In this document: piece by piece, positions 9,938 to 36,464 of the stretch | Layout of the letters: each line of letters starts with the position of its first letter | Numbering within the stretch: the stretch's first letter is position 1 | Source: Pseudomonadota bacterium | Lineage (GTDB): Bacteria > Pseudomonadota > Gammaproteobacteria > Burkholderiales > Burkholderiaceae_C | NCBI GenBank assembly: GCA_021845505.1 | Contig: JAJZVU010000016.1 | Coordinates: 1 to 64,000, forward strand | Length of the DNA stretch: 64,000 nt | Reading direction: 5' to 3' | The notes under the pieces: generated by a model | Database searches by the model: none | What the model was told of the DNA's origin: nothing | What the model saw: the letters and a program-made list of their open reading frames with translations, nothing else | Made by a program: the position numbers and the translations under genes

Positions 9938-10513
9938 TCAGACCAGCGGCGCGCGGTCTTCGCGCGGTCGCAGCCGGCGCACCACCCGCGCCGGGACCCC
10001 GGCGACGAAGCTGTCCGGCGGCACGTCGCGGGTGACCACGGCGCCGGCACCGACCACCGAGTTCTCGCCGACGGTGACTCCGCCGACGATGGTCACCGCG
10101 GTGGCGATCCACACATTGCTGCCGATGACAATCGGCCTGGCCTCGATGGTCTGGCGCCTGTGCGACGGATCGAGCGCGTGGCCGACGGTGATCAGGTTGA
10201 CGTTCGGCCCGATGAGCACCAGGTCGCCGATGTCGACTCCGCCGGTGTCGTAGATGGTGCAGCACTGGTTGATGAACACCCTGCGCCCCACGCGGATCCT
10301 GCGTCCGCCGGCGGTGTAGAACGGGGGGATCAGGTTGAAGTCGGGGTCGACGGGCTGGCCGGTCAATTCGCTGAACAGCTCGCGGATGCGCGCCGCGTCG
10401 TCGACGCCGAGCTTGCTGATTTCGGCGCTCAGCCGGATGCCGCGCTGGATGTCCTGGGTTTGCGCAGACCACTCGGGACTCGCGGTCGCGAAGCGGATCG
10501 GATTCGGTCTCAT
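9938..10513 (-). CDS. Hexapeptide-repeat O-acetyltransferase (maltose/nodulation L type)
   Basis: The 191-residue protein is a left-handed beta-helix acyltransferase of the LacA/Maa/NodL group, which transfers acetyl from acetyl-CoA to a sugar hydroxyl. A helical N-terminal lid (SAEISKLGVDDAARIRELFS) precedes hexapeptide turns: RRVFINQCCTIYDTG, VLIGPNVNLITVGHALDPSH, and IVIGSNVWIATAVTIVGGVTIG-like repeats, ending GVPARVVRRLR. The catalytic histidine expected in this group fits the GHALDP motif. I use the ATG at 10513; the longer reading frame adds 17 residues unlike the family. The acceptor sugar is unknown. Confidence 0.85.
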   Translation of the reverse strand: MRPNPIRFATASPEWSAQTQDIQRGIRLSAEISKLGVDDAARIRELFSELTGQPVDPDFNLIPPFYTAGGRRIRVGRRVFINQCCTIYDTGGVDIGDLVLIGPNVNLITVGHALDPSHRRQTIEARPIVIGSNVWIATAVTIVGGVTVGENSVVGAGAVVTRDVPPDSFVAGVPARVVRRLRPREDRAPLV

Positions 10514-10666
10514 CGGATTCGCGCAAGGGTGGCTGCGTTCCCGGCATCGTAGCGGGCAGCCCATCGCTGCGCGACGTGGGTCCCGGAGTTCGGGCCTGCC
10601 CTGCCAGGCGGCCCGAGGGACGGCGGCCGGGCGGTCGCGCCCGGCCGGTGGGAAGTGCGCCGCGGC

Positions 10667-28304: not shown

Positions 28305-28982
28305 TCAGGTCGACTCGGCGGCGGCCGCCTGCAGTTGCGGGGTGACCCGCGCGTGGGCGGTGGTCACGTGGTCGCGGATCGCCTGCGCCGCAGCCTCGGC
28401 GTCGCCTGCTGCGATGGCCTCGAGGATCGCCGCATGCTCGCTCCATACCGCGCCGGCCAGCTCGGGGTGGCGCAACACCTCGCCCATCGCCCGCCGCAGG
28501 TGCTGCCAGTGGGTGCCCATGGTCTCGACGATCAGCGCATTGCCGCTGGTCTCGTAGATCCACGAGTGGAAGGCCACGTCGGCGAGCAGGCGCGCCTGCG
28601 CGTCGTCGCGGCTGGCCGCGCGGCGGCCCTGCTCGACCAGCGCGCGGCCGCGCTCGATCTGCTCGCGTCCGGCACGCCGCGCCGCCAGCGCGGCGGCCAG
28701 CGGCTCCAGCGCCGAGCGCAGTTCGTAGATGGCGTCGAAGCGTGCGCGGTCGACCGCGGCGACCTGCAGCCCGCGCCGCCCACGCTCGACCAGGAAGCCC
28801 TGCAGCCGCAGCCGCGCCAGCGCGGCCATCACCGGCTGGCGCGACACCTGCAGGCTGGCGGCGAGTTCGTCCTGGGTGACGCGCTGCCCGGGCGCCAGCG
28901 CGCCGTCGCAAATGGCATCGAGGATGCGGTCGTAGACCTGATCGACCAGGGTGCGTTGGGGCTGCAGCGACTCGATCGGCAT
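28305..28982 (-). CDS. GntR/FCD-family regulator, likely repressor of the hcm operon
   Basis: The 225-residue regulator has a GntR winged helix (residues 10-75; QVYDRILDAICDGALAPGQR, ELAASLQVSRQPVMAALARL) and an FCD ligand domain (85-215). An Asp and three histidines (DVAFHSW, EHAAIL, RDHV) form the FCD metal site that usually holds a carboxylate-bearing ligand. It is divergent from the mutase operon, and a perfect palindrome lies between that operon's -35 and -10. I infer repression relieved by 2-hydroxyisobutyrate, its CoA ester or a related acid; the ligand is not shown by sequence. Confidence 0.9.
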   Translation of the reverse strand: MPIESLQPQRTLVDQVYDRILDAICDGALAPGQRVTQDELAASLQVSRQPVMAALARLRLQGFLVERGRRGLQVAAVDRARFDAIYELRSALEPLAAALAARRAGREQIERGRALVEQGRRAASRDDAQARLLADVAFHSWIYETSGNALIVETMGTHWQHLRRAMGEVLRHPELAGAVWSEHAAILEAIAAGDAEAAAQAIRDHVTTAHARVTPQLQAAAAEST

Positions 28983-29010
28983 GGTGGGGGTGGCGGCGGG
29001 CGCATCGGGA

Positions 29011-29057
29011 TAAGGGAAAACCCTTAATCCTTGTTTTCGTATACCGTATACGATAAT
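29011..29057 (+). promoter_or_regulatory. Promoter and palindromic operator of the hcm operon
   Basis: TCGTATACCGTATACGA (29037-29053) is a perfect palindrome around a central C. It fills the spacer between TTGTTT (29031-29036) and GATAAT (29052-29057, overlapping the last two bases), a layout in which a bound repressor would block RNA polymerase. A second inverted repeat, TAAGGG-AAAA-CCCTTA, sits at 29011-29026 towards the regulator gene. Confidence 0.75.
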
Positions 29058-29112
29058 ACCCGGACCCGAGCTGGGTGTCACCCGTTTCCCTACCCCCAGG
29101 AAGAGTTTGCCC

Positions 29113-29523
29113 ATGGACTCATCACCGATCCGCGTGCTGCTGGCGAAAGTCGGGCTCGACGGCCACGACCGCGGGGTCAAGGTCGTCGCCCGCACCCTGC
29201 GCGACGCCGGCATGGATGTCATCTACTCCGGGCTGCACCGCTCGCCCGAGGAGGTGGTCAACACCGCGATCCAGGAGGATGTCGACGTGCTCGGCGTGAG
29301 CCTGCTTTCGGGTGTGCAGCTCACCGTGTTCCCGAAGATCTTCAAGCTGCTGCGGGACAAGGGAGCCGACGACCTGATCGTCATCGCCGGCGGCGTGATG
29401 CCCGACGAGGACGCCGAGGCCATACGCGGCATGGGGGTGCGCAAGGTGCTGCTGCAGGACACCCCGCCGCAGGAGATCGTCGATTCCATCCGGCGCCTGG
29501 TCGCCGAGCGCGGCCCGCGCTGA
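29113..29523 (+). CDS. hcmB: 2-Hydroxyisobutyryl-CoA mutase small subunit (B12-binding)
   Basis: The 136-residue protein is a stand-alone cobalamin-binding domain: the DxHxxG motif is Asp16-Gly-His18-Asp-Arg-Gly21 in KVGLDGHDRGVKVVARTLRD, with His18 the lower cobalt ligand. VLGVSLLSGVQ and VIAGGVMPDEDAEAI complete the Rossmann-like fold. Split mutases pair this subunit with a separate substrate domain, here encoded 2.4 kb downstream (31955). A TTG at 29107 gives a two-residue longer alternative. It opens the operon, about 55 nt after the -10. Confidence 0.88.
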   Translation: MDSSPIRVLLAKVGLDGHDRGVKVVARTLRDAGMDVIYSGLHRSPEEVVNTAIQEDVDVLGVSLLSGVQLTVFPKIFKLLRDKGADDLIVIAGGVMPDEDAEAIRGMGVRKVLLQDTPPQEIVDSIRRLVAERGPR

Positions 29524-29537
29524 GACCGGACACCACC

Positions 29538-30977
29538 ATGGACATGGAAGAGTGGAGTTTTCCCGTCGCGTACGACGAACACTACCTGCCTCCCGCCGAC
29601 AGCCGCTACTGGTTCCCGCGCCGCGAGACCATGCCGCCGGCCGAGCGCGAGCGGGCGATCCTCGAGCGGCTGCGCCAGGTCTGCCAGTACGCGTGGGACC
29701 ATGCCGAGTTCTACCGCCGCAAGTGGGATGCAGCCGGCTTCCACCCCAGCCAGCTCAGGTCGCTGGAGGACTTCGAGCAGCGCGTGCCGGTGGTCACCAA
29801 GGCCGACCTGCGCGCCTCGCAGTCGGCGCATCCGCCTTTCGGCGACTACCTGTGCGTGGACGACTCGGAGATCTTCCATGTCCACGGCACCAGCGGCACC
29901 ACCGGCAGGCCGACGGCCTTCGGCATCGGCAGGGCCGACTGGCGCGCCATCGCCAACGCCCATGCGCGCATCCTGTGGGGCATGGGGCTGCGCCCGGGCG
30001 ACATGATCTGCGTGGCCGCGGTGTTCAGCCTGTACATGGGCAGCTGGGGCGCGCTGGCGGGCGCCGAGAGGCTGGGCGCCAAGGCCTTTCCCTTCGGCGC
30101 CGGCGCGCCGGGGATGACCGCGCGCCTGGCGCAATGGCTGGCGCTGATGAAGCCGGCGGCCTTCTACGGCACGCCCAGCTACGCGATCCACCTGGCCGAG
30201 GTGGCGCGCGAGGAAAAGCTCGATCCGCGCTCCTTCGGGCTGCGCTGCCTGTTCTTCTCCGGCGAGCCGGGCGCCTCGGTCGCCGGGGTCAAGGACCGCA
30301 TCGAGGACCTGTACGGCGCCGCGGTGTACGACTGCGGCTCGATGGCCGAGATGTCCCCGTTCATGAACGTGGCCGGCAGCCAGCAGAGCAGCCAGGGCAT
30401 GTTGTGCTGGCAGGACCTGGTGTACACCGAGGTGTGCGACCCGACGAGCCTGCGCCGCGTGCCCTACGGCCAGCGCGGCACCCCGGTCTACACCCACCTG
30501 GAGCGCACCAGCCAGCCGATGATCCGGCTGTTGTCGGGCGACCTGACTCTGTGGACCGACGAGCCCACGGCCTGCGGCCGCACCTACCCGAGCCTGCCGC
30601 AGGGGATCTTCGGGCGCATCGACGACATGTTCACCATCCGCGGGGAGAACATCTACCCCAGCGAGATCGACGCCGCGCTGAACCAGCTGCAGGGCTACGG
30701 AGGCGAGCACCGCATCGTGATCACCCGCGAGTCGGCGATGGACGAGCTGCTGCTGCGCGTCGAGGCCGACGAGCCGATCCACCGCGCCGGAGCCGCGGCG
30801 CTGGAGGCCTTCCGCGCGGCCGCGTCGCGCCAGTTGCACACCATGCTGGGGGTGCGGGCGAAGGTGGAGGTCGTCGCGCCGCACTCCATCGCCCGCACCG
30901 ATTTCAAGGCGCGGCGGGTGATCGACGACCGCGAGGTCTTCCGGTCGCTGAACCGGCAACTGCACGACGCGGGCTGA
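29538..30977 (+). CDS. PaaK-like acyl-CoA ligase, probable 2-hydroxyisobutyrate-CoA ligase (Hcl type)
   Basis: The 479-residue adenylate-forming enzyme belongs to the phenylacetate-CoA ligase branch: HGTSGTTGRPT (116-126) is the P-loop, FSGEPGASV and YDCGSMAEM are central motifs, and TIRGENIYPSEID and RTDFKARRVI mark the mobile C-terminal domain with its catalytic lysine. Length and setting match the ligase (Hcl) that activates 2-hydroxyisobutyrate in mutase operons such as that of Aquincola tertiaricarbonis. Phenylacetate is unlikely because no paa ring-cleavage genes are near. It lies 14 bp after hcmB and 7 bp before meaB. Confidence 0.85.
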   Translation: MDMEEWSFPVAYDEHYLPPADSRYWFPRRETMPPAERERAILERLRQVCQYAWDHAEFYRRKWDAAGFHPSQLRSLEDFEQRVPVVTKADLRASQSAHPPFGDYLCVDDSEIFHVHGTSGTTGRPTAFGIGRADWRAIANAHARILWGMGLRPGDMICVAAVFSLYMGSWGALAGAERLGAKAFPFGAGAPGMTARLAQWLALMKPAAFYGTPSYAIHLAEVAREEKLDPRSFGLRCLFFSGEPGASVAGVKDRIEDLYGAAVYDCGSMAEMSPFMNVAGSQQSSQGMLCWQDLVYTEVCDPTSLRRVPYGQRGTPVYTHLERTSQPMIRLLSGDLTLWTDEPTACGRTYPSLPQGIFGRIDDMFTIRGENIYPSEIDAALNQLQGYGGEHRIVITRESAMDELLLRVEADEPIHRAGAAALEAFRAAASRQLHTMLGVRAKVEVVAPHSIARTDFKARRVIDDREVFRSLNRQLHDAG

Positions 30978-30984
30978 GGCGGCC

Positions 30985-31968
30985 ATGGCCTACGTCGCAT
31001 CGCTGGAATTGCTGCGTCGCTTGCGCGAAGGCGATGCCTGGGCGCTGGGGCGGCTGATCTCCCGCGCCGAGGCGGGGGTCGCGGAGGCGCGGCCCGCGCT
31101 CGCCGAGGTCTACCGCAGCGCCGGCAGCGCCCATGTCATCGGCCTCACCGGGGTGCCGGGCAGCGGCAAGTCGACCCTGGTCGCCAAGCTGACCGCGGCG
31201 CTGCGCGCGCGCGGCGAGAAGGTGGGAATCGTCGCCATCGACCCGTCGAGCCCGTATTCCGGGGGGGCGATCCTCGGCGACCGCATCCGCATGTCGGAAC
31301 TGGCCGAGGACCCCGGGGTGTTCATCCGCAGCATGGCCACGCGCGGCGCGACGGGGGGCATGGCGCGCGCCGCGCTGGACGCGGTCGACGTGCTCGACGT
31401 CGCCGGCTTTCGCACCATCCTGCTGGAGACGGTCGGAGTCGGCCAGGACGAGGTCGAGGTGGCGCACGCTTCCGACACCACGGTGGTGGTGTCGGCCCCG
31501 GGGCTGGGCGACGAGATCCAGGCCATCAAGGCCGGGGTGCTGGAAATCGCCGACATCCACGTGGTCAGCAAGTGCGACCGCGACGATGCGTTGCGCACCC
31601 TGACCGACCTCAAGCAGATGCTGACCCTGGGAACCCTGGTCGGACCGAAGCGCGAGTGGGCGATCCCGGTGGTCGGCGTGAGTTCGTACAGCGGGCAGGG
31701 GATCGACACCCTGCTCGAGCGCATCACCGCCCATCGCGACGCGCTGGCCGCGTCCGAGCTCGGGTCGCAGCGGCGGCGCCGTGTCGCCCAGTTCCGGCTG
31801 GAAAAGACCGCGCAGACCCTGCTGCTCGAGCGCTTCGCGGCGGGCGCGCGGGGCTTCGCCCCGGCGCTGGCCGCCAGCCTGGTCGATCGGGCCACCGATC
31901 CCTACGCGGCGGCGGGTCGGTTGATCGCCCAGACCCTACACGAGGAGTTTTCCGATGAGCTGGCTTGA
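30985..31968 (+). CDS. meaB: MeaB/ArgK-type GTPase chaperone of the mutase
   Basis: The 327-residue G3E GTPase protects and repairs B12-dependent acyl-CoA mutases by gating cofactor loading. Walker A is GVPGSGKS (56-63), with VAIDPSSPYSGGAILGDRIR, MATRGATGGM and ETVGVGQDEVEVA switch regions and the guanine-specifying SKCDRDD-type motif. The old name ArgK (arginine/ornithine transport kinase) is misleading. Its end overlaps the mutase large-subunit start by 14 bp, matching its dedicated-partner role. Confidence 0.93.
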   Translation: MAYVASLELLRRLREGDAWALGRLISRAEAGVAEARPALAEVYRSAGSAHVIGLTGVPGSGKSTLVAKLTAALRARGEKVGIVAIDPSSPYSGGAILGDRIRMSELAEDPGVFIRSMATRGATGGMARAALDAVDVLDVAGFRTILLETVGVGQDEVEVAHASDTTVVVSAPGLGDEIQAIKAGVLEIADIHVVSKCDRDDALRTLTDLKQMLTLGTLVGPKREWAIPVVGVSSYSGQGIDTLLERITAHRDALAASELGSQRRRRVAQFRLEKTAQTLLLERFAAGARGFAPALAASLVDRATDPYAAAGRLIAQTLHEEFSDELA

Positions 31969-33643
31969 TCCGAAGCAGCGCGATGCGCTGCAATCCGAAC
32001 GCGCATCGTGGGAAGAGCAGGAGGTCGCGGCCTTCCTGCGCAAGCAGCCCGAGCGCAAGGAGCAGTTCCACACCATCGGCGACATCCCGGTGCAGCGCAC
32101 CTACACCGCCGCCGACATCGCCGATACCCCGCTGGAGGACATCGGCCTGCCCGGGCGCTATCCCTTCACCCGCGGGCCGTACCCGACCATGTACCGCAGC
32201 CGCACCTGGACGATGCGGCAGATCGCCGGGTTCGGCACCGGGGAGGACACCAACCAGCGCTTCAAGTACCTGATCGCCCAGGGGCAGACCGGGATTTCCA
32301 CCGACTTCGACATGCCCACGCTGATGGGCTACGACTCCGACCATCCGATGAGCGACGGCGAGGTCGGGCGCGAGGGCGTGGCCATCGACACCCTGGCCGA
32401 CATGCGGGCGCTGCTGGCCGACATCGACCTGGAAACCATCTCGGTGTCGCTGACCATCAACCCGACCGCGTGGATCCTGCTGGCGATGTACGTCGCGCTG
32501 GCGCAGGAACGGGGCTACGACCTGAACAAGCTGTCGGGGACCGTGCAGGCCGACATCCTGAAGGAGTACATGGCGCAGAAGGAGTACATCTACCCGATCG
32601 CTCCTTCGGTACGCATCGTCCGCGACATCATCACCTACTCGGCGCGCAACCTCAGGCGCTACAACCCGATCAACATTTCCGGCTACCACATCTCCGAGGC
32701 CGGATCGTCGCCGCTGCAGGAGGCCGCCTTCACGCTGGCCAACCTGATCACCTACGTCGAGGAGGTGACCCGCACCGGAATGCAGGTCGACGAGTTCGCT
32801 CCGCGGCTGGCGTTCTTCTTTGTCTCGCAGGGCGACTTCTTCGAGGAGGTGGCCAAGTTCCGCGCGCTGCGACGCTGCTACGCGAAGATCATGAAGGAGC
32901 GCTTCGGGGCGCGAAACCCCGAGTCGATGCGCCTGCGCTTTCACTGCCAGACCGCCGCGGCGACCCTGACCAAGCCGCAGTACAAGGTCAACATCGTGCG
33001 CACCGCGCTGCAGGCGCTGTCGGCGGTGCTCGGCGGGGCGCAGTCGCTGCACACCAACGGCTACGACGAGGCCTTCGCGATTCCCACCGAGGACGCGATG
33101 AAAATGGCCCTGCGCACCCAGCAGGTCATCGCCGAGGAGAGCTGCGTCACCCAGGTCATCGACCCGCTGGGCGGCAGCTACTACGTCGAGGCGCTGACCA
33201 CCGAGTACGAGCGTCGCATCTTCGCGCTGCTCGACGAAGTCGACGAGCGCGGCGGCACGATCAAGTTGATCGAGCAGGGCTGGTTCCAGAAGCAGATCGC
33301 CGACTTCGCCTACGAGACGGCGCTGCGCAAGCAGTCGGGCGAAAAGCCGGTGATCGGGGTCAACCGTTTCGTCGAGGCCGAGGAACGGGCGGACATCGAG
33401 ATCCATCCCTACGATCCCAGCACCGCCGAGCGGCAGATCGCCCGCACCCGGCGGGTACGGGCCGAGCGCGACGAGCCGAAGGTGCAGGCGCTGCTCGAAC
33501 AGCTGCTGGAGGTGGCCAGGGACCCGTCGCGCAACATCATGCCCATCACCATCGAGCTGGTCAGGCAGGGGGCGACGATGGGCGACATCGTCGAGCGCCT
33601 GAAGACCCTGTGGGGAACCTACCGCGAGACCCCGGTTTTCTGA
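31955..33643 (+). CDS. hcmA: 2-Hydroxyisobutyryl-CoA mutase large subunit
   Basis: The 562-residue protein is the TIM-barrel substrate subunit of a B12-dependent acyl-CoA mutase. Position 90, in [18 protein letters not shown], is isoleucine; methylmalonyl-CoA mutase has tyrosine there and isobutyryl-CoA mutase phenylalanine. Asp117 in [10 protein letters not shown] is also as in characterised 2-hydroxyisobutyryl-CoA mutase, and overall length is the same. The reaction interconverts 2-hydroxyisobutyryl-CoA and (S)-3-hydroxybutyryl-CoA, so tert-butanol-derived or other 2-hydroxy acids could enter central metabolism. It has no B12 domain of its own, so it needs HcmB. GAGGAG lies 7 nt before the ATG. 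A related branched hydroxyacyl-CoA substrate remains possible. Confidence 0.92.
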
Positions 33644-33648
33644 AGGCC

Positions 33649-35439
33649 ATGGGAGCCCCGGTCCTGCAGTCCCACAGCGCCGCCGCGGTCATCGCGCGCC
33701 TCCTGCGGCTGCGCGGAGTGGACCGGGTGTTCGGGCTGTGCGGCGGCCATGTGATGCCCATCTGGATGCGCCTGGACGCCGAGGGCATCGCGATCGTCGA
33801 CGTGCGCGACGAGCGCGCCGCGGTCTACATGGCTCACGCCTACGCCGAGCTCAGCGGCAGGCCGGGGGTCGCGCTGGTCACCTCCGGACCCGGGGTGACG
33901 AACGCCATGACCGGCATCGCCAATGCCCATGTGGCGCGCGCGCCGGTGCTGGTGCTGTCGGGCACTCCGCCGCGGCCCCAGCAGCACCGCGGAGCGCTGC
34001 AGGACCTGGACCACCCGGCGATGCTGCGGGGTATCACCCGCTACGCGCGCACGGTGCGCGAGCCGGCGCAGGTGCCGCAGGCGCTGGACGAAGCGCTGGC
34101 GGCGGCCGGCGGCCAGGCCGGCGGCGAGCCCGGCCCGGCCTTCGTGGATTTCCCCACCGACACCCTGCGCGCGCCGGTTCCGCAGGCCGCGCAGCTCGCC
34201 GAGCACATGCAGCCGCGCGCGCCGGCGCGCATCGTCCCCGACCCGCAGGCCATCGAGAGCGCGTTCGCGTTGATCGCCGGCGCCAGGCGTCGCCTGGTGA
34301 TCGGCGGGCGCGGCGCGCGCAACGCCGCGGCCGAACTGGCGCGCCTGCTCGACGCCACCGGCGCGGTCTTCCTCGACACCGGGGAGTGCAAGGGCGTGCT
34401 GCCGGAGGACCACCCGGCCGGGGTGTCGGCGGTGCGCAGCGCGGCGATGGCCGAGGCCGACCTGGTGATCACCGTCGGACGCAAGCTCGACTTCCAGCTG
34501 GGCTACGGCTCGCCCGCGGTGTTCGGCGACGCGCGCTGGCTGCGCATCGGCGACCATGCCGCGGAATTGCGCGACAACCGCCGCGGCGAAGTCGAGCTGC
34601 TGGCCACCCCCGCGCTGGCGCTGCAGGAGCTGGCCGTCCGCTGCGCGGGCCGCGTGGACGGGGCCGACGCGGCGTGGCGCGAGCGCCTGCGCGGCGAGCA
34701 CCTGCGGCGGGCGCAACGCGCCCGGCAGGCGATGGCCGAGGCCGCGAGCGACGGCGAGGGTTTCATGCACCCCAACCGTCTGTTGCACGAGGTGCAGCGT
34801 GCCATCGGGGACGATGCCGTGGTGGTCGCCGACGGCGGCGACTTCCTGTCCTTCGCGCGCGTGGGGATCCGTTGCGCGACCTACCTCGACCCCGGCTCGC
34901 TGGGCTGCCTGGGAGTGGGCACCGCCTTTGGCATAGGCGCCGCGCTGGCGGTGCCGCAGCGCCTGGTGGCCGTGCTGACCGGAGACGGCGCCTTCGGCTT
35001 CAACTGCATGGAGATCGACACCGCGGCGCGGCATCGCGTGCCGTTGCTGGTGGTGGTCGCCAACAACGGCGCCTGGCAGATCGAGGTGCACGACCAGGCG
35101 AGCAGCCACGGCCGCGTCGTCGGCACGCGGCTGCAGCGCGCGGACTACGCGGCGATGGCGCGGGCCTTCGGCGCGCACGCCGAGCGGGTCGAGCGCGCCG
35201 AGGAGCTGCCGCAGGCGCTGGCGCGCGCGCTGGACGCGCTGGCGCAGGGCAGGCCGGCGCTGCTCGATGTGCAGGTCCGTGGCGATGTGGTGTCCTCCGA
35301 CGGCAAGTCGGGGCTGGCCTGGGTGCCCGACCTGCAGCCGCTGGAGGCCTGGGACACCGCCGAGCGCAACTGGCGGCAGGGTGCGGGGCCGCGGCCGCAC
35401 GCCGAGCCTGCGGGCCCCGAGGCCAGCGCCGCGCGATGA
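33649..35439 (+). CDS. ThDP-dependent 2-hydroxyacyl-CoA lyase-like enzyme
   Basis: The 596-residue protein has the three-domain acetolactate-synthase fold. Glu55 in DVRDERAAVYMAHAYAELSG activates ThDP; the GDGAFGFNCMEIDTA...NN motif (445-473) binds its diphosphate through magnesium; NNGAWQIEVHDQASSHGR follows. No small regulatory subunit or ilv gene is present. Actinobacterial enzymes of this group cleave 2-hydroxyisobutyryl-CoA to acetone and formyl-CoA, and Glu479 just after NNGAWQI is a candidate for their distinctive catalytic glutamate. Location directly after hcmA (5-bp gap) supports that call. Acetolactate synthase or oxalyl-CoA decarboxylase are the alternatives. It overlaps the next gene in ATGA. 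Confidence 0.78.
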   Translation: MGAPVLQSHSAAAVIARLLRLRGVDRVFGLCGGHVMPIWMRLDAEGIAIVDVRDERAAVYMAHAYAELSGRPGVALVTSGPGVTNAMTGIANAHVARAPVLVLSGTPPRPQQHRGALQDLDHPAMLRGITRYARTVREPAQVPQALDEALAAAGGQAGGEPGPAFVDFPTDTLRAPVPQAAQLAEHMQPRAPARIVPDPQAIESAFALIAGARRRLVIGGRGARNAAAELARLLDATGAVFLDTGECKGVLPEDHPAGVSAVRSAAMAEADLVITVGRKLDFQLGYGSPAVFGDARWLRIGDHAAELRDNRRGEVELLATPALALQELAVRCAGRVDGADAAWRERLRGEHLRRAQRARQAMAEAASDGEGFMHPNRLLHEVQRAIGDDAVVVADGGDFLSFARVGIRCATYLDPGSLGCLGVGTAFGIGAALAVPQRLVAVLTGDGAFGFNCMEIDTAARHRVPLLVVVANNGAWQIEVHDQASSHGRVVGTRLQRADYAAMARAFGAHAERVERAEELPQALARALDALAQGRPALLDVQVRGDVVSSDGKSGLAWVPDLQPLEAWDTAERNWRQGAGPRPHAEPAGPEASAAR

Positions 35440-36464
35440 GCGCCACGCCGAACCTGGTGGCCTATGCCGACGCCCGGCCGGTGCTGCTCGGCGAGGTCGC
35501 GCTGGCGCTGCCCGGGCACGCGGTGATCGGCCGCGTCACCCTGGGGCGCGGGGCGCGCCTGGGCGCAGGCAGTGTCATTCGCGCCGACGGGCACTACGTG
35601 CGGGCCGGTGACGACCTCGAACTCGGGCGCGGCGCCACGGTGCACATCGCCCACGACCTCCATCCCACGCTGATCGGCGAACGGGTGTGCGTCGGCGCCG
35701 ATGCGGTGGTGCACGCCTGCACGCTGGGCGACGAAGTGGTGGTCGAGGAGGGCGCGGTGGTGCTCGACGGCGCGCGAGTCGGCGACGGCGTGGTGCTGGA
35801 GGCGCACAGCGTGGTGTTTCCGCGCAGCGTGCTCGAGCCGGGTACCCTGTATTCCGGCAGCCCCGCGCGGCCGCTGCGCAGGCTCGATTCCAGCGAGCGC
35901 GCCGAGCGCGCCCGGGCGCTGCGGTCGCGCAATGCCGCGGACGCGGCCGCGGCCGACTGGCCGTGCCGCACGCTGCCGCAGGCCGCCGCCGCCGAGGTGT
36001 TCGTCGCCGCGACCGCCTGCCTGCAGGGCCAGGTGCGGCTGGGCCAGGCCGGCAGCGTCTGGTATGGCTGCCGGCTGGATGCGAACGCCGCGCCCATCGA
36101 GCTCGGGGCGCGCTGCAACGTGCAGGACAACTCGCAGCTGCTGGCCCGCGGGCCGGGGATCGTGCTGGGCGAGGACACGACGGTCGGTCACAACGTGCAC
36201 CTGGCCGACTGCAGCGTCGGGGCGCGCTGCCTGATCGGCATGGGCAGCCGCATCGCCGCGGGCACGGTGATCGCCGACGACACCTTCGTCGCGGCGGGCT
36301 GCACGACCCTTGCGGGCCAGCGGCTGGACGGCGGGCTGGTGTGGGGCGGGCGGCCGGCGCGGGTGCTGGGCGAACTCGACCAGACCAAGCGCCGGCTGGT
36401 GTTGCTGACCGTGCAGACCTACCGGGAATACGCCAGGGTGCTGGGGCAGGCTCAGCGCGCGTAG
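35436..36464 (+). CDS. Fused double gamma-carbonic-anhydrase-fold protein
   Basis: The 342-residue protein has two left-handed beta-helix halves (about 8-150 and 185-312) with hexapeptide repeats, each like gamma-carbonic anhydrase, CaiE or PaaY. A normal member needs three metal-ligand histidines. The N half keeps the first and third (His70, His93) but has Ala88 at the second. The C half keeps only the second (His252), with Leu236 and Ala257 elsewhere. The conserved Arg/Asp pair is present only in the N half (Arg49, Asp51). PaaY of this fold is a thioesterase, so a CoA-ester salvage role fits the operon, but this is inference. It starts in ATGA overlap with the lyase gene. Confidence 0.8.
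   Translation: MSATPNLVAYADARPVLLGEVALALPGHAVIGRVTLGRGARLGAGSVIRADGHYVRAGDDLELGRGATVHIAHDLHPTLIGERVCVGADAVVHACTLGDEVVVEEGAVVLDGARVGDGVVLEAHSVVFPRSVLEPGTLYSGSPARPLRRLDSSERAERARALRSRNAADAAAADWPCRTLPQAAAAEVFVAATACLQGQVRLGQAGSVWYGCRLDANAAPIELGARCNVQDNSQLLARGPGIVLGEDTTVGHNVHLADCSVGARCLIGMGSRIAAGTVIADDTFVAAGCTTLAGQRLDGGLVWGGRPARVLGELDQTKRRLVLLTVQTYREYARVLGQAQRA

Follow-up and report, generated by a model that had tools for sequence, protein, structure and literature searches.

A fused two-domain gamma-carbonic-anhydrase-like protein of a 2-hydroxyisobutyrate operon divides the canonical site residues between its halves and may build one metal site from both

The last gene of a 2-hydroxyisobutyrate operon was found to encode a protein with two gamma-carbonic-anhydrase-like (gamma-CA-like) halves, and the residues of the canonical gamma-CA site are divided between them. 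Gamma-CAs are homotrimers, and each of their sites needs two subunits. We propose, with a probability of about two in three, that the fused protein is a gamma-CA-like metalloenzyme in which two fused, specialised beta-helix domains form a complete site at the contact of the N and C halves. The gene lies in the window, which here means the whole stretch of 64,000 nucleotides that was analysed, and the features discussed are listed in Table 1. Residue counts refer to a fused set of 37, consisting of the window protein and 36 full-length homologues 33-92% identical to it, gathered from genome, plasmid and relative-genome searches. As a comparison set, 41 single-domain gamma-CAs were used.

Table 1. 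Coordinates in the window of the operon genes, of the two halves of the fused protein and of its site residues (x/37, counts in the fused set).
Feature	Position	Strand	Remarks
Divergent GntR-type regulator	28305..29222	-	ORF; GntR annotated here in PM1, Py2 and A. deltaense
hcmB, B12-binding small subunit	29113..29523	+	PF02310
hcl, AMP-forming CoA ligase (2-hydroxyisobutyrate-CoA ligase by context)	29538..30977	+	PF00501, PF14535
meaH, mutase-associated GTPase (MeaB family)	30985..31968	+	PF03308, 289 bits
hcmA, 2-hydroxyisobutyryl-CoA mutase large subunit	31955..33643	+	4r3u HcmA 1135 bits vs 436 for methylmalonyl-CoA mutase
HACL, 2-hydroxyacyl-CoA lyase, TPP enzyme	33649..35439	+	Best PDB match 7pt1 AcHACL, E 7e-170; Pfam TPP_enzyme_N/M/C
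Fused two-domain gamma-carbonic-anhydrase-like protein	35436..36464	+	342 aa; single open frame; full-length homologues in Pseudomonadota
N half, residues ~1-172	35436..35951	+	Left-handed beta-helix and C-terminal helix; R/His1/His3 face kept
C half, residues ~180-342	35973..36461	+	Left-handed beta-helix and C-terminal helix; Asn/Gln/His2 face and helix Tyr kept
Arg49-Ala-Asp51 (Cam Arg59/Asp61), N half	35580..35588	+	Arg and Asp 37/37
His70, first zinc ligand position (Cam His81), N half	35643..35645	+	His 37/37
Ala88, second zinc ligand position (Cam His117), lost in N half	35697..35699	+	His 0/37
His93, third zinc ligand position (Cam His122), N half	35712..35714	+	His 37/37
Asn228-Val-Gln230-Asp231 (Cam Asn73/Gln75/Asp76), C half only	36117..36128	+	N, Q, D 37/37
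Leu236, first ligand position, lost in C half	36141..36143	+	His 2/37 (L085, L043); Arg 21/37
His252, second ligand position (Cam His117), C half	36189..36191	+	His 37/37
Ala257, third ligand position, lost in C half	36204..36206	+	His 3/37 (L011, L043, L085)
Tyr329, C-terminal helix, aligned with Tyr207 of plant gamma-CA1	36420..36422	+	Tyr 37/37 C halves; N half without

The fused gene starts with ATG at 35436 and stops with TAG at 36462-36464, and the stop of the HACL gene overlaps its start as ATGA. Pfam searches recognised four hexapeptide stretches in the protein (Hexapep, 85.5 bits). Among the NCBIfam models, the C half was nearest to gamma-CA NF050158 and the N half to PaaY TIGR02287, both under the cut-off: the gamma carbonic anhydrase equivalog NF050158 scored 158.3 against a cut-off of 250 bits with both halves summed, the PaaY equivalog 89.6 against 319.6 bits, and CaiE (PRK13627/NF010150) 71.7 against 305 bits. 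Compared with the 92%-identical homologue L024, dN/dS was about 0.30 in each half, indicating that both halves of the fused protein are under purifying selection.

hcmB-hcl-meaH-hcmA-HACL-fused gene is a 2-hydroxyisobutyrate operon with the fused gene last, and the gene order fits the described 2-hydroxyisobutyrate clusters (PMC7176365). The fused gene of the window is thus encoded together with hcmA, hcmB, hcl and meaH, and the CoA operon at whose end the sequence-only reading had placed it could be given a name. A GntR regulator is usual beside hcm operons (PMC7176365); the GntR-type ORF as listed here starts inside hcmB on the other strand, and translation probably begins at a later start codon of the same frame. 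Two routes for 2-hydroxyisobutyryl-CoA are encoded together between 29113 and 35439 of the window, the B12 mutase route (hcmAB) and the TPP lyase route (HACL); Methylibium petroleiphilum PM1 also has both.

At 19 loci, namely the window and 18 homologous loci, hcmA was adjacent to the fused gene or within about 3 kb of it. On the plasmid of M. petroleiphilum PM1 the fused gene (MPE_RS22160) lies in the hcm operon and overlaps the lyase gene; in this strain two different cobalamin adenosyltransferase genes flank the lyase and fused gamma-CA genes (L077:6637-7218 and 10058-10615). Xaut_5022 directly follows hcmA on pXAUT01 of Xanthobacter autotrophicus Py2, and the fused gene is likewise linked to hcm genes on a plasmid of Agrobacterium deltaense. 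At locus L024 the lyase lies at a contig edge, and at locus L100 hcmA is about 11 kb from the fused gene. Several operons carry the fused gene without the lyase nearby, and the fused gene is therefore not tied to the lyase. One locus labelled planctomycete (L040) has an hcm operon with 55-87% identity to its betaproteobacterial counterparts and a fused protein that groups with those of Burkholderiales, which points to mis-binning or recent transfer.

Thirteen homologues lie elsewhere, not beside hcmA, for example those of genus g386 (G448 and others). The genomes checked among these carried only 33-43%-identical mutases, and a neighbour shared by the 13 was sought, with none found beyond close relatives. 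A role limited to the HcmA pathway was rejected, because these 13 homologues are not next to HcmA and a pathway-specific role is thus not general. At another locus (L102:4553-9025) the gene immediately upstream of the fused gene encodes an IcmF-like single-chain B12 mutase of 1088 aa, a type other than HcmA. In a Methylobacteriaceae MAG (L036:8911-14776) it is found beside genes that, read from their sequences, resemble a CaiD-like enoyl-CoA hydratase, an ADP-forming acyl-CoA synthetase and an acyl-CoA dehydrogenase, a neighbourhood which recalls the place of CaiE in carnitine operons.

When the fused proteins were aligned with canonical gamma-CAs, His70, Ala88 and His93 of the N half and Leu236, His252 and Ala257 of the C half fell in the His1, His2 and His3 columns, exactly the assignment that the sequence-only reading had made. 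In the 41 single-domain gamma-CAs R, D, Q and the three H were invariant, Asn was present in 38 of 41, and the Asp231 site was always Asp or Glu. Instead of three histidine ligands per subunit, the fused proteins have an N half without His2 (37/37) and a C half without His1 (35/37) or His3 (34/37). The Arg/Asp pair had been described as kept only in the N half, and this held across the family: opposite Arg49 and Asp51, the C half of the window protein has Asp215 and Asn217, with R at 215 in 0/37 and D at 217 in 1/37. Conversely, opposite Asn228 and Gln230 the N half lacks N at 62 and has G at 64. Canonical gamma-CAs have Arg/Asp and Asn/Gln together in one subunit; in the fused proteins Arg/Asp was confined to the N half and Asn/Gln to the C half. 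Asn232 of the C half is also present in all 37 fused proteins. Because Asn, Gln, the following Asp and Tyr329 are kept only in the C half, the division spans the whole canonical site, and in this alignment all eight canonical site residues (R, D, N, Q, H, H, H, Y) are each retained in a single half.

The same pattern appeared when residues conserved in at least 85% of the single-domain set were considered. Every charged or amide site residue (R, D, N, Q, H, H, H) was present in one half and missing from the other, and the conserved positions kept by neither half were small or hydrophobic, except for one Arg near the C-terminal helix, for which the N half was just under the 90% mark (0.89). An exact complement by chance has a probability of 1/70 for eight sites with the halves keeping 4/4 independently, a figure in which conservation is not counted. 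On the tree, His at 236 needs at least two changes and His at 257 at least three, and position 252 never changes. Homologues therefore do not lose the site histidines at random (n = 37), which was the check that had been suggested, and random decay is ruled out by the 37/37 conservation and the complementary losses. In two homologues, L043 and L085, all three histidines are still found in the C half; these C halves may represent the state before loss of the His1/His3 face, and an additional C-C site could form in them.

In Cam, one monomer contributes His81 and His122 to zinc binding and the next contributes His117 (PMC4519908); in a halophilic gamma-CA, His64 and His94 come from chain A and His89 from chain B (PMC7199487). 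These solved structures agree with the arrangement that the sequence-only reading had given for Cam, with the first and third histidines from one subunit and the second from its neighbour. In the canonical hexapeptide register, position i+1 is taken by Arg in hexapeptide 0, by His1 in hexapeptide 3 and by His3 in hexapeptide 6, which make one stacked column, while Gln and His2 on hexapeptides 2 and 5 make a second. The residues of the first column are those retained by the N half and the residues of the second those retained by the C half; the site has thus been divided face by face. Tyr207, Gln101 and Arg86 have been reported around the zinc site of plant gamma-CA1, and they align with Y329, Q230 and R49 of the fused protein.

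In the mechanism that we propose, one face, carrying Arg49/Asp51, His70 and His93, would come from the N domain, and the other, with Asn228/Gln230/Asp231 and His252 and probably Tyr329, from the C domain. Placed against each other, the N(His1/His3) and C(His2) faces would restore the whole site and give one complete mononuclear centre, with metal predicted to bind at the N/C contact. N-N contacts could not form such a site, and C-C contacts would be expected to do so only in L043 and L085, and hence in nearly all homologues not at all. It had been claimed that the losses are complementary and would leave one N/C hetero-site; the pattern holds in 37/37 with His252 invariant, whereas the N/C contact itself is a point that we infer.

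The AlphaFold model of the window protein had a pTM of 0.82 and a mean pLDDT of 75, and that of the homologue L025 a pTM of 0.87 and a mean pLDDT of 82, with pLDDT in the C half only about 65-80. The left-handed beta-helix with C-terminal helix of canonical gamma-CAs was present, and in comparisons with gamma-CA structures the window model reached Z values of about 15-20, the homologue model as much as 25.8. Among the matches listed, only one solved chain, 3c8v, spanned the two halves in both models (299 and 297 aligned residues at rmsd 3.8 and 3.7, with 14-16% identity), a match to be read with the caveat that AlphaFold training came after the release of 3c8v. The models suggest that the two halves hold a defined arrangement within one chain, and since both do so, the one site that we expect per chain would most likely form within the chain.

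Conservation lends good support to the proposed site shared by the two halves. The weak point of the proposal is assembly. If whole chains trimerised with simple C3 symmetry, like halves would meet in an N3 and a C3 ring and no N/C contact would arise; nor do two domains per chain split evenly into trimers. An N/C site would call for an asymmetric assembly or for pairing of the halves within one chain, and pairing within the chain would be the simplest arrangement that fits the conservation.

C3 symmetry is nevertheless the gamma-CA norm, and the chains might form stacked homotrimers, N3 + C3, in which the N ring holds metal through His70, His93 and a substitute (His53 or His73) and the C ring is structural. 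His53 is present in 30 and His73 in 29 of the 37 N halves. However, both also occur in canonical gamma-CAs that keep three ligands (13/41 and 17/41) and are ordinary in one group of these, which makes them unlikely as replacement ligands, and they are replaced in 7-8 fused members. Stacked trimers would also leave unexplained why N228, Q230, D231 and H252 are retained in 37/37 beside the lost other ligands of the C half, and we consider this arrangement unlikely. That each half is without at least one ligand would also suit a dead pseudoenzyme kept as a scaffold or subunit glue, with its site residues as folding relics, in the manner of the plant complex I CAL subunits, which lost two ligands yet were retained. 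Relics, though, are not expected to be exact complements, nor to stay unchanged across 37 homologues with identities as low as 33% when positions 236 and 257 drift freely; a dead protein seems to us quite unlikely. Gamma-CA trimers have three domains and the genome of the window has further gamma-CA-like genes, which might allow a third, separately encoded domain to complete a pseudo-trimer N+C+X, but G054, G448, G930, G861 and G981 carry the fused gene without another full-length gamma-CA match, and we hold this to be very unlikely. An obligatory canonical partner subunit was rejected as well, with at least five genomes having the fused gene and no other full gamma-CA.

All canonical CA residues are present over the two halves, and CO2 hydration by the fused protein is possible from its residues; its relative PaaY also has CA activity. 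A true carbonic anhydrase or bicarbonate supplier for carboxylation is improbable, however, as the genome encodes a complete single-domain gamma-CA elsewhere (G000:C23) and neither the mutase nor the lyase route for 2-hydroxyisobutyryl-CoA has a carboxylation step. For the latter reason the 'carboxylation aid' of the sequence-only reading found no support in the two published routes. PaaY is a thioesterase, with CA activity too, from a CoA catabolic operon (PMC467105), and in the lyase route formyl-CoA hydrolysis is left to unidentified thioesterases, with no dedicated formyl-CoA hydrolase identified (PMC7176365). By the analogy with PaaY and this gap in the lyase route, a PaaY-like CoA-thioester hydrolase would be the likeliest role of the fused protein, at somewhat less than even odds. 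It might, for example, relieve stalled 2-hydroxyisobutyryl-CoA or formyl-CoA, a suggestion made with lower confidence. The combined picture, in which the protein left homotrimeric symmetry and became two interdependent beta-helices with exactly one metal site, acting as a CoA-thioester hydrolase in B12-dependent branched-acid catabolism, is possible but clearly tentative.

In a tree with single-domain gamma-CAs, the N halves formed one clade (100/100) and the C halves another (100/99) in separate parts, and the N clade was nested among single-domain bacterial gamma-CAs. Forcing N and C halves together cost 18 log units and was not rejected (AU p = 0.126), and the tree thus appears compatible both with internal duplication and with fusion of two lineages.

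Gamma-CAs of the Cam, CamH and YrdA type share with the fused protein the beta-helix and C-terminal helix as well as the ligand and second-shell columns, and the N half nests among their single-domain bacterial members; they differ in having three histidines in every subunit of a homotrimer, whereas in the fused protein two domains share one set. The CA1, CA2 and CAL subunits of plant mitochondrial complex I (PMC7447434, PMC7567890) resemble it in being non-identical, with partial ligand loss and one zinc site at one hetero-interface, but they are three subunits from separate genes, without fusion and in a different pathway. Plant CA1 lost one ligand and CAL two, so that two interfaces died, with no reciprocal division of the whole site. 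PaaY of the phenylacetate operon, the best NCBIfam match of the N half, has the gamma-CA fold and is likewise encoded with CoA-thioester catabolic genes, but is a single domain with a canonical trimeric site. CaiE of the carnitine operon, matched through NCBIfam PRK13627, is also a gamma-CA-fold accessory in a CoA operon; it too is a single domain, and the fused protein falls far under the CaiE cut-off. 3c8v, a putative acetyltransferase from Desulfovibrio desulfuricans G20 compared by structure alignment, has two beta-helix parts in one chain, but shows 14-16% identity to the models and has no assigned function. A literature search for fused or tandem gamma-CAs returned nothing relevant, and papers on hcm clusters made no mention of the fused gene; both searches covered openly licensed papers only and are weak absences.

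2-Hydroxyisobutyrate is a product of fuel-additive degradation. The fused gene is an apparently undescribed component of the 2-hydroxyisobutyrate pathway, relevant to the degradation of MTBE and tert-butanol. For a shared site, the substitutions H70A, H93A and H252A offer a sharp prediction. A family that divides the whole site between fused domains would be a clear example from nature of reciprocal loss after duplication or fusion, and from the division one can read on which side of the interface each residue lies.
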